NCBI GenBank assembly: GCA_028293125.1
Contig: JAQGPJ010000051.1
Coordinates: 1-64,000, forward strand
DNA: 64,000 bases
Source: Verrucomicrobiales bacterium
GTDB lineage: Bacteria > Verrucomicrobiota > Verrucomicrobiia > Verrucomicrobiales > V1-33
Direction of reading: 5' to 3'
Under the pieces are notes generated by a model. It was not told where the DNA came from. It saw only the letters and a list, made by a program, of their open reading frames with translations, and did not search any database. Below, in pieces: positions 1 through 9,744 of the stretch (position 1 is its first letter; every line of letters starts with the position of its first letter). The position numbers were made by a program, and so were the translations under genes.

Positions 1-270
1 TGCCAGCTTTCGGCATCCCCGTTCGGCTTGGAATTTGAAACTAAGGATGATCCCGACGGCAGCAGTCCGAACTACTCGGCCGATTACCGCCTCTCCTCCT
101 TTGAGGCCGGGAGTGTCGGCATCCGTCTGCGCTGCGAGCTGGGGGAGAACGTCGTTTTCACCGCAGCCTATGAGCGCTACGCCATGAACGGCACGGGCAG
201 TGATACCGCGCCCAGCGACTCCTATCCCAGCGCCAACATGATCACTCTGGGGCTGCACCTGAATTTTTAG
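1..270 (+). CDS. C-terminal end of DUF3570-like outer-membrane beta-barrel protein (partial)
   Basis: The gene is cut by the left edge of the window; the frame is open from base 1, so about 89 C-terminal residues are visible. The sequence has alternating polar and hydrophobic strands (DYRLSSFEAGSVGIRL, ENVVFTAAYERYAMNG) and ends in a phenylalanine (LGLHLNF), the usual terminal signature of an outer-membrane barrel. The YERYAMNG and A-x-MITLG pattern resembles the end of DUF3570 proteins, which I know to accompany DUF4266 and ApbE genes, and both follow directly here. The spacing to ApbE is 20 bp, suggesting one transcript. The family call rests on a short tail and on context. Another barrel family is possible. 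Confidence 0.6.
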   Translation, partial: CQLSASPFGLEFETKDDPDGSSPNYSADYRLSSFEAGSVGIRLRCELGENVVFTAAYERYAMNGTGSDTAPSDSYPSANMITLGLHLNF

Positions 271-290: not shown

Positions 291-1262
291 ATGATCACTC
301 TGACTCCCCAAGCGGTTCTGCCCCCCGATGCCTTCGGGCTGCGGCGGCTGGAATTCCGCGCGCTGGGAACAGACTGCCAGATCAAATTCCGGGAACCGCG
401 CGAGCGCCGGGCGCTTCAGTTTGCCGCCGATGCCTTGGACTGGCTGGGAAAATTCGAGGCCAAATTCTCGCGTTTCCGTCCAGAATCCATGGTGTCCCGC
501 ATCAATGCCGCCGCGGGACACGACTGGGTGGAGACGGATGCGGAAACGGAGCAGATGCTTGATATCGCCGATGACCTCTTCCGTCTGACGGAGGGCATTC
601 TTGATCCCACGGTTTTGCCGCTGCTGCGGGTCTGGGACTGGAAAACGGTTCATGAAAAACTGCCCGAAACCGCCGTTGTGGAACAGGCGCGGGCGCTCTG
701 CGGATGGGGGAAAATCCAGCGTCGTTCCGGTTGGGTGTTTTTGCCAAAGGAAGGCATGGGTCTCGACTTCGGCGGATTTGGCAAAGAACTGGCGGTGGAC
801 GCCGTGGCCAGAATCGCGCGGAATGCCGGGATCAAAGATGCGCTCATCGACCTCGGCCGCGATGTATTCGCCATGGGTGGCAACGGAACGCATCCATTCT
901 GGCATGTCGGCATTGAGGATGGCAATGAACCCGGCAAGTGCTGGGGCGGGCTGGCCGTCAGCGGCCGGGCGGTTTGCGCGTCCGGCGACCACGCGCGCGG
1001 TTTCACCCACAAAGGAATCACTTACGGCCATATTCTGGATCCCCGCACAGGCTGGCCGGTCCGCAATGGCATGAGGGCTGTGACCGTGGTCGCCCCCACC
1101 TGTCTGGAAGCCGGCATCCACAGCACCGCCGTGTTTGTCCTGGGGACCCAAAAAGGTCTGGAGCTGGCATCCCGCTCGCCGGGGGTGGCGGTCTGCACCC
1201 AAAACGAGGACGGCATCGACGGCACCCTCAACTTCGGCCAATGGCTGGTCCAGAGCGGTTAG
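291..1262 (+). CDS. apbE: FAD:protein FMN transferase (ApbE family)
   Basis: ApbE enzymes transfer FMN from FAD onto a Thr/Ser of target proteins, using Mg2+. At 323 aa the length fits the family. Landmarks in order: the opening ALGTDCQIKF block near residue 24, GILDPTVLPLL near residue 102, DFGGFGKELAVD near 160 (the family D-x-GG-x-x-K-x-x-x-x-D block, with E after the lysine), LIDLGRDVFAMGG near 185, HILDPRTGWPV near 246 and STAVFVLG near 278. The ATG at 291 is 20 bp after the barrel gene. No signal peptide or lipobox is visible, unlike many ApbE proteins that act outside the membrane, so flavinylation may happen before export or the protein may be exported another way. It is followed by a TlpA-like thioredoxin, a DUF4266 lipoprotein and a candidate target protein. 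Confidence 0.9.
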   Translation: MITLTPQAVLPPDAFGLRRLEFRALGTDCQIKFREPRERRALQFAADALDWLGKFEAKFSRFRPESMVSRINAAAGHDWVETDAETEQMLDIADDLFRLTEGILDPTVLPLLRVWDWKTVHEKLPETAVVEQARALCGWGKIQRRSGWVFLPKEGMGLDFGGFGKELAVDAVARIARNAGIKDALIDLGRDVFAMGGNGTHPFWHVGIEDGNEPGKCWGGLAVSGRAVCASGDHARGFTHKGITYGHILDPRTGWPVRNGMRAVTVVAPTCLEAGIHSTAVFVLGTQKGLELASRSPGVAVCTQNEDGIDGTLNFGQWLVQSG

Positions 1263-1296: not shown

Positions 1297-1794
1297 ATGA
1301 AACTCATCCTGACCGCCCTCCTGCTTTTCTCATGCCTCCCGCAAAGTCTGGTGGCCGCCGAGGGCGTCGCTGTTGGACAGCCGATTCCCAAACTGGCCCC
1401 TTTGCTGCCCGGAGCGAAGATTCCTGACACTGCGGGCAAAGTGGTGCTGGTGGACTTCTGGGCCTCCTGGTGCGCTCCCTGCAAAGCCTCCTTTCCCTGT
1501 CTCAACCGGCTTCAGGCCAAATATGCCGCCAAGGGCTTGGTGATCATCGGCATCGGGGTGGATGACGAGGCCGCTGACTTCACGAAATTCGCCACCGCCA
1601 TGGACGCCGCCTTCCCTCTGGTGCATGACAGCGCGCACAAAAGCGCGGCCGCCTTCAGTCCCGGCACCATGCCCAGCAGTTACCTCATCGACCGCAAGGG
1701 GGTGGTCCGGCATATCCACAACGGATTCAAAGGCGCGAAAACCGAAAAGGAATATATCGCCGAAATCGAGGCCCTGCTTGCCGAAAAGCCCTGA
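1297..1794 (+). CDS. TlpA/ResA-like secreted thioredoxin-fold protein
   Basis: A 165-aa protein from the ATG at 1297. This start gives a clean signal peptide (MKLILTALLLFSCLPQS...VAAEG); upstream in-frame codons overlap the ApbE gene and were rejected. The mature part has a thioredoxin fold of the TlpA/ResA kind: VVLVDFWASWCAPCKASFP holds the redox pair C59-x-x-C62, followed by a strand (LVIIGIGVDDEAADF) and the cis-Pro region GTMPSSYLIDRKGVV. Such proteins reduce disulfides or assist cofactor attachment on the outer face of the membrane. Position between ApbE and the Cys-rich DUF4266 lipoprotein suggests it keeps the cysteines of the cassette reduced. That link is inference. Confidence 0.88.
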   Translation: MKLILTALLLFSCLPQSLVAAEGVAVGQPIPKLAPLLPGAKIPDTAGKVVLVDFWASWCAPCKASFPCLNRLQAKYAAKGLVIIGIGVDDEAADFTKFATAMDAAFPLVHDSAHKSAAAFSPGTMPSSYLIDRKGVVRHIHNGFKGAKTEKEYIAEIEALLAEKP

Positions 1795-1813: not shown

Positions 1814-2044
1814 ATGAAAAAGCTCCTTCTTCCTCTGCTGCCTCTTATTCTCCTGCTGCCTCTCGGCGGCTGCTCCCATGCTCTCGTCCGGGTAAAACCC
1901 TACGAGCGCGGCAATCTGGCCAAGCCCGTTATGCTGGAAAGCATGGATCCATTGCAGACGGCGATGACGGAACACGCCTATTTCTCCCGCGAGGCTGGCT
2001 TCGGCGGCGGCGGCGTGGGCGGCGGCGGCTGTGGCTGCAATTGA
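1814..2044 (+). CDS. DUF4266 small lipoprotein with Gly-rich GCGCN tail
   Basis: A 76-aa protein. It has a hydrophobic leader ending in a lipobox (LLPLGGC, Cys21), so it should be a lipoprotein. The body contains RVKPYERGNLAKP, MDPLQTAMTEH and SREAGFGGG, which match the DUF4266 pattern as I know it, and the protein ends in a glycine-rich run closing with G-C-G-C-N. The function of DUF4266 is not known to me; its conserved Cys tail and co-occurrence with DUF3570, ApbE and thioredoxin genes suggest an extracytoplasmic redox or metal role. It starts 19 bp after the thioredoxin gene and is likely cotranscribed. Confidence 0.85.
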   Translation: MKKLLLPLLPLILLLPLGGCSHALVRVKPYERGNLAKPVMLESMDPLQTAMTEHAYFSREAGFGGGGVGGGGCGCN

Positions 2045-2073: not shown

Positions 2074-3774
2074 ATGAAACGCAGACTCCCACTCACTGTC
2101 AAAGCCCGTCGGATTTTCTCCCGCTGCGGCCCCCTCATGTTCATTTGTCAACGGGCTCCCATCGGGCAGGTCATCGCCCAGGAGGCCCGGCAGCTGGGAG
2201 CTTCCGCCTTCGGTCAAGTCGCAAAATGGAGCGTCGCCGTGGTCTCCGGTCTCGGTGCTTTTGACTGTGTTTCCGGGGCCACTCTGGTTAAGCAGATCGC
2301 TCCCTCCGCCGGTTCCTCGACAGTGTCGGCGACCAATGGAAACGCTTTGAATTTTGTCGTGCAGGTGACTGGAGCCCCTTCCACCGCCAAAAGCTGGAGA
2401 CTCACCGGCACCCTTCCGACCGGCCTGACCCATGCCAACGCGACCAACAGCAACACCGACTCCGTGACCGGCGTTCCCAGACAGAATGGCAGTTTCCCGG
2501 TCACCATCACCGCTTACGAAAAATCGGGCTTTTCGGGAGGCTCCAAGGCCGCCTCCTTCACGATCAATGTTACCGGGGGTGTCAGCCCACCGACCATTGC
2601 CGCCCAGCCGGGTTCAATCTCCATCGCCGAGGGAGGCACGGCAACCCTCAGCGTCAGTTCGCCAGGAGCCACCGCCTTTCAATGGTATTCCGGGGCCTCG
2701 GGGGACACCAGCAATCCCATTGGCGGCGCGGTCGGCGCCACTTTCACCACTCCCGCGCTTAGCGTCAGCACGAGCTTTTGGGTAAGAACCTCCAATGCCG
2801 GAGGAGCGGTCAATTCCAGTGCCGCCCTGGTGACCGTGATCAATCCCCCGGTCATCAGCGCTCAGCCGGAGTCCGTGTCCATCCATGCGGGTGGGTCCGC
2901 CACGCTCTCAGTGACCGCCACCGGAAGCTCTCCGGCTTTTCAATGGTATACCGGGGCGGCAGGCGATATCACCAATCCCGTGGCCGGCGCAGTAGCTGCC
3001 ACCTTCACCACTCCCCCGCTGGCGGCGACGGCGAGCTACTGGGTGAGGGTCACCAATTCCGTTGGCAGCGTGGACTCCGGCACGGCGGTGGTCACGGTCA
3101 TTGAGCCGCCCATCATTTCCAGCCAGCCGCAGTCAAGAACAGTCAATGCCGGATCCTCCGTCACGCTGACGGTGGGCATCTCCGGAAGTTCTCCGGAATT
3201 TCAATGGTACGCGGGATCCGCGGGGGACACCGCCAATCCGGTGCCAGGCGCGGTCGGCGCGGCCTTCACCACTCCCGCCCTGAACGTCACCACCAGCTAT
3301 TGGGTAAGGGTCTCAAATTCCGTCGGGGCCGTGGATTCCGCCACGGTGGTGATTTCCGTGACCGACACCTTTTCCAGTTGGGCCGCCAGCCATTTCAGTG
3401 AATCCCAGGCGGCGGATGCCGCCATCTCCGGCCCGGCGGCGGACCCGGACGGTGATGGACTGAGCAATGAACAGGAATTTGTCTGGGGTGCACAGCCCCT
3501 GGTTGCTGATCAGCCGGGCTCACTGTTGATTGCCGTGGACGGCGGGCAACTGAGCCTGAAATTCACCGCGGCGGCCGCTGCCGGGCCCGGATATTCCGGG
3601 CTCATCCGCCACTATGCCATGGAATCCTCCTCAGCTCCGGGCGGGAGCGTCGCCTGGGAGGCTCTTCCCGGCTTCTCAGACATCACCGGCCAAGGGCAGG
3701 AAGTGACCTTCACGGCCAGTGTGGGTTCCGGATCCGGTTTCGATCGTTTGAAGGTCTGGCTGACTCCGCAATAA
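2074..3774 (+). CDS. Secreted Ig-like repeat protein with N-terminal D-x-x-SGAT motif
   Basis: 566 aa from the ATG at 2074 (an upstream TTG at 2041 overlaps the DUF4266 stop). The N-terminus is basic ([19 protein letters not shown]), with weak hydrophobic segments, and residues 64-70 read D-C-V-S-G-A-T, which matches the sequence ApbE enzymes flavinylate in NqrC/RnfG-type proteins. A putative-Ig domain follows ([15 protein letters not shown], about 85-180), then three near-identical Ig-like repeats of about 88 residues (each with QPxSxSI...ATLSV...FQWY...TTPAL...WVR), and a C-terminal segment with the acidic Asp-rich loop [13 protein letters not shown]. It sits 29 bp after DUF4266 in the ApbE cassette. 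It could be the flavoprotein of the cassette or merely a secreted adhesin-like protein. Confidence 0.75.
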
Positions 3775-5863: not shown

Positions 5864-6499
5864 TCAAACCGGCTGCCGCAGTCCCTTGGCCACGGCGGCG
5901 GCGCGGGTGTGGACGCCGAGTTTCTGGTAGATGCGGCGCAGATGGGCATCCACGGTGTGGGTGCTCATGCCGAGACGATCGCCGAGCTCCTTGTTGGCCA
6001 GGCCCTTGGCGGCTCCCTGAAGGATCTCCGTCTCCCTTGGCGTCAGGCCGTAATCCTGCTGCGGACCGGCGAGGCGGGCGAACATTTTCCACATGGTTCC
6101 GGCCACATTCCGGTGCATGGGCGAGCCTCCCTGCGCCGCCAGGCGGACGGCTTCGGCGATTTCCTCCTCGGATGAGGTTTTGAGCAGATAGCCGGAAGCC
6201 CCGGCCATCACCGCCTGCTGGATTTTCTCCTGCTCGTCAAAGACGGTCAGCATCACCACATTGACCGCCGGGGCGCGCGATTTGATCTCGCGGATGGCGC
6301 TGATGCCGTTCATGCCGGGCAGCTGCACGTCCAGCAGAATGACATCCGGCACGGAATGCCGCAGGGTTTTGAGAGCGCTCTCCGAGGAGGAGAAGGCGGG
6401 CGCGCAGGTGAAATCCGGCACATCGTTCAGCAGCCGCACCACAATGCCGCTGAACGCGGCGTTGTCCTCAATCAGCCAGATGGAAATGGGGGCGCTCAC
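5864..6499 (-). CDS. NarL/FixJ-type two-component response regulator
   Basis: 211 aa starting with GTG (6499). The N-terminal receiver has the acidic pair in LIEDN, the phospho-acceptor in VILLDVQLPGMNG, and the T/K switch residues in MLTVFD and YLLKTSSE. The C-terminal LuxR-type helix-turn-helix is at about residues 145-205 (LTPRETEILQGAAKGLANKELGDRL, then STHTVDAHLRRIYQKLGV). It lies 33 bp downstream of the propeller histidine kinase on the same strand, so it is very likely the cognate output regulator. The target genes are unknown; the divergent PEP-CTERM gene beyond the kinase is one possibility. Confidence 0.95.
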   Translation of the reverse strand: MSAPISIWLIEDNAAFSGIVVRLLNDVPDFTCAPAFSSSESALKTLRHSVPDVILLDVQLPGMNGISAIREIKSRAPAVNVVMLTVFDEQEKIQQAVMAGASGYLLKTSSEEEIAEAVRLAAQGGSPMHRNVAGTMWKMFARLAGPQQDYGLTPRETEILQGAAKGLANKELGDRLGMSTHTVDAHLRRIYQKLGVHTRAAAVAKGLRQPV

Positions 6500-6532: not shown

Positions 6533-9502
6533 CTAGGACAGCGGAGCGGAAAATTCGATCAGGCTGCCCCCGCCGGGCCGGCTGCGGACATGCAACTCCC
6601 CGTGAAGGCGCTTCAGGCGGAGCTGAGCATTTTTCAAACCGCCGCTGTGCTGAATTGTTTCTGGATCAAAACCCACCCCGTTGTCACGCACGGAAATACT
6701 GAATACCCGGTTGATGGAGTGAACCGCGATCTCCACCCGCGTGGCACCGGAGTGGCGCACCACGTTGTGCAGCAGTTCCTTGAAAGCCAGAAACAGGTGG
6801 CGGCGGAACTCCGGCGGCAGGCTTTCCTGATCCGTGGCTTCCGGAGCCTGAAAGTCATAAGGAATATCTGTGAGCAGGATGGCGGCGGTTTCCCTCATGC
6901 GCAGGATCATTTCCCGGGGGGTGTCGCAGGAGGGATTGATAAACCACACAATGTCCCGCGCGGCCTGGGTGGTCTGGACCGCGATGCGGCTGATCTCGCC
7001 CAGCTCCCCGCGCTCCCGTTCACTGATCGCGGATTGACGGCCCACCCGGCGGCTGAGCAGGACGATGCCTGCGAGATTGCTCCCCAGCTCATCGTGCAGA
7101 TCCCCTGCGATGCGCAGCCGCACCTGCTCCAATTCCCGGCGGCGCTGGCTCCGCAGCCCCAGCAATCCGGCTGCGGCCAGGACCACGGCCACCCCGATCC
7201 CGGCTTTGAATAGAGTGGTCTCCCAGTAATGCGGCCGCACCACGACCGCCACTCCCGGAGATCCCGCCCATCGGCCCTCCTCGCCGGAGGCTTCAACCTG
7301 AAACTCATAAGTCCCGAACGGCAGACGGAAATACATCGCGTTCCGCCCGGTGCCGCTGTAAGTCCAGTCGGCGTCCAACCCCTTCATGCGGTGCCGGAAG
7401 AGGATTTTCTCCGGGGAGCGCAGACTGGGCGCGGTGAATTGAAACTCAAGCCGGCGGAGGCCCGGCGGGACCGTCAGACCTCCGGGAAAGGTGACCCCCT
7501 GCCCGAAAATCAGCGGGTCCGCCAGCGCCGTGCCGTCATCGAGCGCCACCTGCTCCACCATCGCCGACGGAGCGGGCGGCGGAGTGGTTTCCGGAGCGGG
7601 GCGGTCCATGGCCACCAGGCCCCGGATGGTGGTGAACCACAGTCTGCCCGCGGGGTCCATCAGGGTGGCGTTCTGCCGCCCGCCGGGGCATTCCGGGCTG
7701 GGCATGCCGTCGCCACTGCCGAAGGGAACCGCCGTGACCCTCGCCCGCACACCCTCCGCCACCTCCAGCAACTCCCCGCGCGGCACCCGCAGCAGCCCCC
7801 GGTTTGACCCCAGCCAGAAATGTCCGGCGTTGTCCCCGCCGATCTGCGACACCATCCCGTGCGTCAATCCTTGGCGGGCCGTGAAGGAGAAAAACCGCCC
7901 GTTCCGGTACAGTGACAGCCCGTCCGTGGTTCCCACCCACAGCAGCCCCGCGCGGTCCACCAGCAGAGCGCGCACGGAATCACTGCCCAGGCCATCCGCC
8001 GTCCGGAAAGTCCGCACTCCCCCATTCCGCAGGCAGTTGATCCCGCCGTCCGCGGTGCCGAACCACAGCGTTCCGTCCGGCTGCTGCGCGATGCAGTTGG
8101 CCTGATCCCGGGAAAAACCGTCCCGTCGGGTGAACCGCGTGAATTTGCCCCCGTGATAGTTCAGGATCCCCTCGGCCTCGGTCCCGATCCACAGCTGGCC
8201 GGATTGGTCCTCAAACAGCGCTGTGACCACCGCCGCGATGGATTTGCCTCCGGCATCGGGGACGCTCACATTTCCCTGGTCCCAGCGGTAAAGCCCGCCG
8301 CCGCGCTTGCCGATCCAAAGCGATCCCCCGCTGCCCGCGCACAGGGTGAGTATGGGACCTTTGGCACCGAAACCCGGCCCGGCATCCACCGCATGGAAGC
8401 GGTCCTTCTGAAAAAGCATCAGCTCCCCGGAGGCTCCACCGGCCCAGAGACGGCCCTCCCGGTCCCCGGCGAGGGCGATCACCGCATCGGTGCCGGTGCC
8501 GCCGCCGGGGGCGGGAACGGGAATCAGCTGCCGCTCCTTCAGTCTTGCCAGGCCACCGCCATTCAGTCCGGCCCACACATTCCGCTCGTCATCCTGATAC
8601 AGGCTGCGGATGCCGCCCGGCGGCAGGGCGGCGCCAACGGCTGTTTTTCCGCCGCTCTCAAACCTCCATAGAGCCCCGTCCTCCATGGCCGCCCAGGCCG
8701 CTCCGCCGGGGCAGGCACTCAGCGCCGTGACCCGCCCCAGCGGCAGCATCTGTCTCATTTTCCGGACACTGCTGATCTGTCCCCGCAGCAGTCCGAAGGA
8801 TTTGCCGCTCACCCACATCTCCCCGTTTCCGGCATCAGCCAGACCGTCCACGGGCATCAGCCAGTGGTGGGGGGTGAGCATTCCCTTTTCCCAATGCGCC
8901 GGCCCCAGGTTGGTCCCGATCCAGATGCCGCCCGCGCCATCCGTGGCCAATGCCAGGATTTCCGTGCCCGGCAATCCGTCGCGCGTGCGGAAAGTGGTGA
9001 ACCGCTCCCCGTGGAAACAGCTCAATCCATACACCGTTCCCACCCACACCGCGCCGTTCGCGCCCGCCGTCAGGCAGGTGGTCATGTCCGAGGCCAAGCC
9101 CTGGGCGACGGAGAAATGGGTGAAGGCCCCGGCTCCGGCTCCGGCCGCCGCCGCGTCCCCGCCTCCGCCCCGCAGGCGCACCACCCCCCCGCCCTGCGTG
9201 CCGATCCACAGATTCCCCGTCGTGTCCTGCGCCAGCGCGGATATCCGGTCGGATTTGAAAGCGGGGGTGTTGGAGCTGTTGAACACCACAAACCGCAGCC
9301 CGTCAAAACGCGCCAGGCCGTGCAGCGTCCCGATCCAGCAATACCCGTCGCGCGTGCGGGTCACCGCCGTCACTGTATTCTGGGGCAGCCCCTGCTCCGT
9401 CTGCCAGACCCGGACCAAGGGAGACGGGGGCTGAAGCTCCTGACTGCGGACGGGAGCGGCGGCCGTCAGCCAGACCAGAGCGCACAGGAGAGCCCGTGCC
9501 AT
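6533..9502 (-). CDS. Hybrid propeller sensor histidine kinase (Reg_prop, Y_Y_Y, HisKA_3, HATPase)
   Basis: 989 aa from the ATG at 9502, which starts a signal peptide (MARALLCALVWLTAAAPVRS); a start 17 codons further up gives a poorer leader. The periplasmic part is a long two-component propeller of repeats of the W-x-G-T-x-x-G-L type (LWIGTQGGGVVRL, IWIGTNLGPAHW, LWVGTTDGLSLY), about residues 25-630, then a Y_Y_Y domain (LRRLEFQFTAPSLRSPEK) and one TM helix near 780. The cytoplasmic part has the HisKA_3 phospho-acceptor in GDLHDELGSNLAG and an HATPase with HNVVRHS, DNGVGFDP and GGLKNAQLRLK. It pairs with the NarL regulator downstream. The ligand is unknown; in Bacteroidetes such propellers often sense glycans. 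Confidence 0.95.
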   Translation of the reverse strand: MARALLCALVWLTAAAPVRSQELQPPSPLVRVWQTEQGLPQNTVTAVTRTRDGYCWIGTLHGLARFDGLRFVVFNSSNTPAFKSDRISALAQDTTGNLWIGTQGGGVVRLRGGGGDAAAAGAGAGAFTHFSVAQGLASDMTTCLTAGANGAVWVGTVYGLSCFHGERFTTFRTRDGLPGTEILALATDGAGGIWIGTNLGPAHWEKGMLTPHHWLMPVDGLADAGNGEMWVSGKSFGLLRGQISSVRKMRQMLPLGRVTALSACPGGAAWAAMEDGALWRFESGGKTAVGAALPPGGIRSLYQDDERNVWAGLNGGGLARLKERQLIPVPAPGGGTGTDAVIALAGDREGRLWAGGASGELMLFQKDRFHAVDAGPGFGAKGPILTLCAGSGGSLWIGKRGGGLYRWDQGNVSVPDAGGKSIAAVVTALFEDQSGQLWIGTEAEGILNYHGGKFTRFTRRDGFSRDQANCIAQQPDGTLWFGTADGGINCLRNGGVRTFRTADGLGSDSVRALLVDRAGLLWVGTTDGLSLYRNGRFFSFTARQGLTHGMVSQIGGDNAGHFWLGSNRGLLRVPRGELLEVAEGVRARVTAVPFGSGDGMPSPECPGGRQNATLMDPAGRLWFTTIRGLVAMDRPAPETTPPPAPSAMVEQVALDDGTALADPLIFGQGVTFPGGLTVPPGLRRLEFQFTAPSLRSPEKILFRHRMKGLDADWTYSGTGRNAMYFRLPFGTYEFQVEASGEEGRWAGSPGVAVVVRPHYWETTLFKAGIGVAVVLAAAGLLGLRSQRRRELEQVRLRIAGDLHDELGSNLAGIVLLSRRVGRQSAISERERGELGEISRIAVQTTQAARDIVWFINPSCDTPREMILRMRETAAILLTDIPYDFQAPEATDQESLPPEFRRHLFLAFKELLHNVVRHSGATRVEIAVHSINRVFSISVRDNGVGFDPETIQHSGGLKNAQLRLKRLHGELHVRSRPGGGSLIEFSAPLS

Positions 9503-9744
9503 CGATGGCTGCCGCCCTGTGGTCCTGTCGTTATTTTCTGAATATAAAAGCATCGCGAAACCTGTTTGCCCGGGAAAGCCGCCGGGCTGGAAGTTTCATC
9601 ATGTACGAGATCCCGTGACTGTCACGATCCCGTCACACGTGGCATGGAAGGAATACCCTGCCGGTTCAGGACTCCCGTTAAAGCAGGAGGGAGGCCTGTC
9701 CGCGCCGGATTCCCGCTCCACGGACCAACGAAGCACCAAAATCC
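9503..9744. promoter_or_regulatory. Divergent promoter region between kinase and PEP-CTERM genes, with repeats
   Basis: The two genes diverge from this 242-bp gap. It contains a direct repeat GATCCCGT at 9609-9616 and 9626-9633, and between them an inverted pair GTGAC-t-GTCAC at 9615-9625. An AT-rich stretch lies near 9530-9555 by the kinase start. The paired repeats could bind a regulator such as the neighbouring NarL protein. No protein-coding signal was seen. Assignment is inference from symmetry only. Confidence 0.4.

Follow-up and report, generated by a model that had tools for sequence, protein, structure and literature searches.

We describe an Ig-repeat protein that, judging from its sequence and gene neighborhood, probably joins DUF3570 as an ApbE substrate in the DUF3570/ApbE/TlpA/DUF4266 thiol-flavin electron-transfer system. 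Its N-terminal module ends in what we read as a conserved, operon-specific ApbE-type acceptor site; flavinylation of the final residue of this site, T70, is the best reading, and we assign it a probability of roughly 0.6. The gene lies in the window, a stretch of 64,000 nucleotides that forms the start of contig C113 in a genome of 6.48 Mb, and the first gene of the window is therefore cut. The features that bear on the argument are collected in Table 1.

Table 1. Positions in the window of the operon genes and of the parts of the Ig-repeat protein.
Feature	Position	Strand	Basis or remark
DUF3570 outer-membrane barrel, C-terminus only	1..270	+	PF12094; front missing at contig start
ApbE, FAD:protein FMN transferase family	291..1262	+	PF02424; without signal peptide; Gly at canonical catalytic Asp
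TlpA/ResA-like thioredoxin (AhpC-TSA), WCAPC active site	1297..1794	+	sequence, Pfam
DUF4266 small protein; lipobox-like start, C-terminal CGC (CXC)	1814..2044	+	PF14086; sequence
Ig-repeat protein, 566 aa, ATG at 2074	2074..3774	+	three Ig_7 repeats (PF19081)
Conserved N-terminal module, residues 1-70, including Q26-R27-x-P29	2074..2283	+	alignments A1, A3, A5; profile matches
Candidate ApbE acceptor motif D64-C-V-S-G-A-T70	2263..2283	+	sequence; family conservation; background count
T70 codon (act), candidate FMN acceptor; alternatively +1 of a putative signal-peptidase cut	2281..2283	+	sequence; inference
First Ig-like domain, from residue 71	2284..2574	+	AlphaFold pLDDT >90 from residue 71; Ig-fold matches

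ApbE, DUF3570, the thioredoxin, and DUF4266 lie together in one operon, which is the gene content of the DUF3570/DUF4266 flavinylation system. A previous sequence-only reading had placed the Ig-repeat gene in an operon with ApbE, a TlpA-like thioredoxin, DUF4266, and a barrel, and the same-strand Pfam assignments of these neighbors (PF02424, AhpC-TSA, PF14086, and PF12094) agree with it; that the barrel is a DUF3570 protein had been missed. Meheust et al. 2021 (PMC8238504) demonstrated by experiment that ApbE flavinylates DUF3570 at [ST]GA[ST], and described clusters in which ApbE and DUF3570 are joined by a thioredoxin-like protein and DUF4266, with DsbD also present in some. Because such clusters have already been reported, the window holds a known system plus an extra gene. 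The four genes are the same as in the published clusters, down to a DUF4266 with a C-terminal CXC, whereas the Ig-repeat fifth gene, the absence of a signal peptide from the operon ApbE, and the Gly at its catalytic Asp position set the present operon apart. The text of PMC8238504 has no match to "Verrucomicrob", and in open-access full texts we found no report of an Ig component of an ApbE/DUF3570/DUF4266 system, PMC8238504 being the only directly relevant source. The upstream neighbors of ten operons include no DsbD and vary from operon to operon; the conserved unit is therefore five genes.

The N-terminal module, about 70 aa long, was found in 118 distinct Verrucomicrobiota homologs, and the N-terminal 76-80 residues of the Ig protein have no meaningful match in Pfam. 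With the first query 19 of 94 relatives were matched, the weakest of them only in the Ig part. A phylum-wide set of 388 genomes yielded the module in 25, two of these being doubtful, and within family f9, which we take to be Opitutaceae, 113 of 200 genomes have it. A profile search of genome contigs, made with the narrower alignment set A2, returned named records that were all Verrucomicrobiota (Prosthecobacter, Akkermansiaceae, Brevifollis, Pedosphaera, and others), and no relatives were found in viral contigs. Family proteins are about 316 to 2,571 aa long and carry the module N-terminally, GA[T/S] lying about 65 residues in. No CxxCH haem motifs occur in the Ig proteins.

Read from the ATG at 2074, residues 64-70 of the window protein are D-C-V-S-G-A-T, as had been claimed, with the D64 codon starting at 2263. 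The span 2074-2283 that had been assigned to the site fits the whole N-terminal module, but the motif itself occupies only 2263-2283. Among 43 aligned sequences, G68 and A69 are the only invariant N-terminal columns, while Q26, R27, P29, G61, and T70 are each conserved in at least 90%. The G-A-[T/S] acceptor core is kept in 116 of the 118 distinct homologs, at a fixed place. The prediction that the motif is conserved in operon-linked homologs therefore holds for this core but fails for the strict form D-x-x-[ST]-G-A-[TS], which is present in the window protein and in 19/118 homologs, so that the full motif does not characterize the family. The first motif position is D in 56 homologs, H in 42, N in 15, and Q in 4 (n=118), and the -3 position is A in 85, S in 25, V in 4, and T in 2 (n=118). 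The strict form occurs within Verrucomicrobiales as well as among the most divergent members (L098, L230, and L232); the loosened forms may therefore be derived.

Could the match be an accident of a low-complexity protein rich in G, A, S, and T? The Ig repeats do contain VGATFTTP by composition. However, strict D..[ST]GA[ST] has no match among the 1,171 other ORFs (436,157 aa) that surround operons of this type, a background in which the relaxed form [DNHQ]..[ASTV]GA[ST] occurs 15 times, and the near-invariant core sits at a fixed position in 118 homologs of a family that co-occurs with the operon. We regard chance as hardly credible.

The loosening at D and at -3 in the Ig family does not refute flavinylation, because the DUF3570 and FMN_bind proteins of the phylum are loosened at these positions too. 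The DUF3570 proteins of the operons vary mainly as [DN]-[AST]-I-[SATV]-G-[AS]-[ST], and in the phylum's FMN_bind domains the pattern is [DEHR]-x-x-[STPV]-G-A-T, with GAT kept. In fumarate reductase, changing D to A has a minor effect on flavinylation, changes of G and A reduce it to about half, and changing T to A abolishes it (review, PMC12052999); Asp is called essential for the V. cholerae enzyme (PMC10722498). A 7-residue motif is sufficient for ApbE. In the original mutant study the Ser at -3 was reportedly dispensable as well. Where the Ig protein has H at the D position, the DUF3570 of the same operon nearly always keeps D. Covariation of the -3 residue between the Ig protein and DUF3570 (48 of 97 pairs matching against 30 expected from a plain shuffle) was dropped as a line of evidence, with a partial Mantel r of -0.06 (p 0.95) when relatedness was controlled. 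One genus (L081, L271, and L277) carries two operons: in the first, Val occupies -3 of DUF3570 (DAIVGAT) and of the Ig protein (N[ST]VVGAT) alike, and in the second both proteins have Ala there. The V/V pair is a single event and is suggestive of a shared enzyme preference.

Like the FMN_bind proteins (PF04205: NqrC, RnfG, and others), the Ig family carries a short candidate acceptor motif of the form D-x-x-[ST]-G-A-T, and within the phylum both families depart from it at D and -3; unlike theirs, the site of the Ig family occupies a short segment ahead of an Ig fold, and PF04205 has no match in the Ig protein. The DUF2271, Flavodoxin_4, and FMN_red substrates are likewise ApbE-linked, with a short motif in another fold, but they were demonstrated by co-expression and Ser/Thr-to-Ala mutants (PMC8238504, PMC11334425), whereas the Ig family is a putative substrate.

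An AlphaFold model of the Ig protein made with 43 sequences has low-confidence helices up to residue 66 and a confident Ig fold from residue 71, with T70 at the junction between them. This geometry, together with an AxA|T context like that of a signal-peptidase site, which the sequence-only reading had missed, suggests another explanation, in which residues 1-69 would form an unusually long conserved signal peptide with the motif as its c-region. Signal peptidase I would then cut at [A/S]-G-A|T70, the first Ig strand would become the N-terminus of the mature protein, and the likeness to ApbE sites would be convergent. The column profile has the n-, h-, and c-regions of a signal peptide, with K/R at -19 in 75% of sequences, a hydrophobic run spanning -18 to -7, a polar -6 position, and small residues at -3 (A/S/V) and -1 (A), and the start of the folded domain at residue 71 also fits. 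We consider this explanation a serious alternative, but clearly less likely than flavinylation. The G at -2 and the T/S at +1 are near-invariant, which a plain signal-peptidase site does not need, and the signal-peptidase sites predicted by a simple rule for DUF3570 in the same operons vary freely at -2 and +1. The upstream L-G-A at -10 to -8 is conserved as well, an earlier hydrophobic segment with preceding positive residues can act as the signal, as in L230, and a leader gives no reason for the tight tie to the ApbE operon. A single residue could scarcely be both the cleavage point and the flavin acceptor. Autotransporters have extended signal peptide regions, in which a long and conserved N-terminal leader precedes a repetitive surface protein. 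The arrangement in the Ig family resembles this, but the sequence is different, there is no autotransporter barrel, and conservation runs across the cleavage-like site. If T70 were a cleavage site, the family would define a conserved extended leader missed by current annotation.

Alternatively, GAT could have a structural role or serve in sorting, for instance by ending a helix or by forming a surface that docks the Ig stalk to DUF3570/DUF4266, and be neither flavinylated nor cleaved. Such a role would suit the conservation of the whole LGA[YFV][DHN][ST][VL][AS]GAT block and of QRxP across the family as well as the tight co-occurrence with the operon, but it leaves both the hydroxyl residue (T, rarely S) and the match to the ApbE core unexplained, and we hold it to be quite improbable.

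Linkage of the Ig family to the operon is strong. Ninety-nine of the 118 homologs are within 6 kb, on the same strand, of DUF3570, DUF4266, or ApbE, and 82 are near all three; the remaining 19 include some second copies and some genes at contig ends. In total, 92/118 homologs are near an apbE, the gene linkage expected of an ApbE substrate. Of 200 genomes, 109 have both module and DUF4266, 4 have only the module, 4 have only DUF4266, and 83 have neither (Fisher p 9e-46, a value not corrected for relatedness). In the phylum sample, 23 of the 25 module-positive genomes have DUF4266, the matches in the other two being weak, and the genomes with DUF4266 and no module are mostly in other classes. 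Thus some operons lack the module, but a module without the operon is hardly ever seen. Because this co-occurrence is almost perfect, the Ig-repeat protein is a lineage-specific fifth component of the DUF3570/ApbE/TlpA/DUF4266 system. The co-occurrence with the ApbE operon that had been proposed as a check, and that we ran, was thus borne out for the gene family. The flavinylation reading as originally put forward is partly supported: core conservation and operon co-occurrence speak for it, and the loosening of the strict motif speaks against it.

The operon ApbE enzymes (window 291-1262 and orthologs) form a subfamily with AGxxST in place of ADxxST that keeps the FmnB-type Arg. With respect to the V. 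cholerae catalytic triad (D285-S241-H257), the Ser and His are kept in 107/107 enzymes, while the Asp is replaced by Gly in 103/107, leaving the triad incomplete. An N-terminal hydrophobic stretch is absent in 80 of 83 operon ApbEs, as judged by hydropathy only, and these enzymes accordingly show neither signal peptide nor lipobox. Both peculiarities had been overlooked in the sequence-only reading. Because the Asp and the signal peptide are missing, the claim that the operon ApbE flavinylates anything is weakened; either the operon ApbEs work without the Asp, or another ApbE flavinylates. The window's genome has three ApbE genes, one of which encodes an N-terminal hydrophobic stretch. No FMN_bind was found in this genome, and its ApbE substrates must therefore be of other kinds. 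Plasmids contained no DUF3570 and only ordinary ApbEs.

The model of an orthologous full-length DUF3570 is an outer-membrane barrel with porin-like matches (pLDDT 92.6), and in it the DUF3570 motif ends strand 3. Strand counting would put the motif at a loop on the outer side. From the observed parts list we infer an FMN on T70, an export route, and an electron path with its order, direction, and acceptor. In the flavinylation reading, ApbE would move FMN from FAD onto T70, at the junction of an N-terminal hydrophobic helix, serving as targeting signal or anchor, and an Ig stalk of variable length. Electrons could then pass from a periplasmic reductant to the thiols of TlpA and the DUF4266 CXC, with DsbD feeding in in some bacteria by published analogy, from these thiols to the flavins of the DUF3570 barrel, on to the flavin at the base of the Ig stalk, and finally to an external acceptor at the cell surface. 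More tentatively, and with somewhat less than even expectation, we propose a new class of ApbE substrate in which Ig stalks with covalent FMN at their membrane-proximal base would, together with a flavinylated outer-membrane barrel, conduct electrons at the cell surface of Verrucomicrobiota without haem. An unusual ApbE subfamily lacking both signal peptide and catalytic Asp would serve these stalks, their flavinylation possibly preceding export. If T70 is flavinylated, ApbE biology gains a substrate family without a flavin-binding fold, the DUF3570 system gains a likely surface-exposed partner, and flavin-based surface electron transfer is predicted in many Verrucomicrobiota. It would also raise the question of how an ApbE without signal or Asp modifies exported proteins.

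Several further observations were made on individual operons and on the genes around them. Two operons, L086 (G347) and L136 (G439), contain DUF3570, TlpA, and DUF4266 and are without apbE, which is found elsewhere in both genomes. Genome G005 encodes two copies of the Ig protein: the one in the operon (L043 8878-9132) is an 84-aa ORF with the degenerate motif DSVPGVT, and an intact second copy elsewhere (L038 10386-12350) has DSVAGAS. In the window, a heavy-metal P-type ATPase (TIGR01525/TIGR01512; 3806-5728) starts within 35 bases after the Ig gene; it was rejected as an operon member, as it was not found adjoining the operon elsewhere. Beyond it, on the minus strand, translations alone indicate a LuxR-type response regulator (5864-6499) and a long sensor kinase with propeller-like repeats (6533-9553), which together appear to be a two-component pair.
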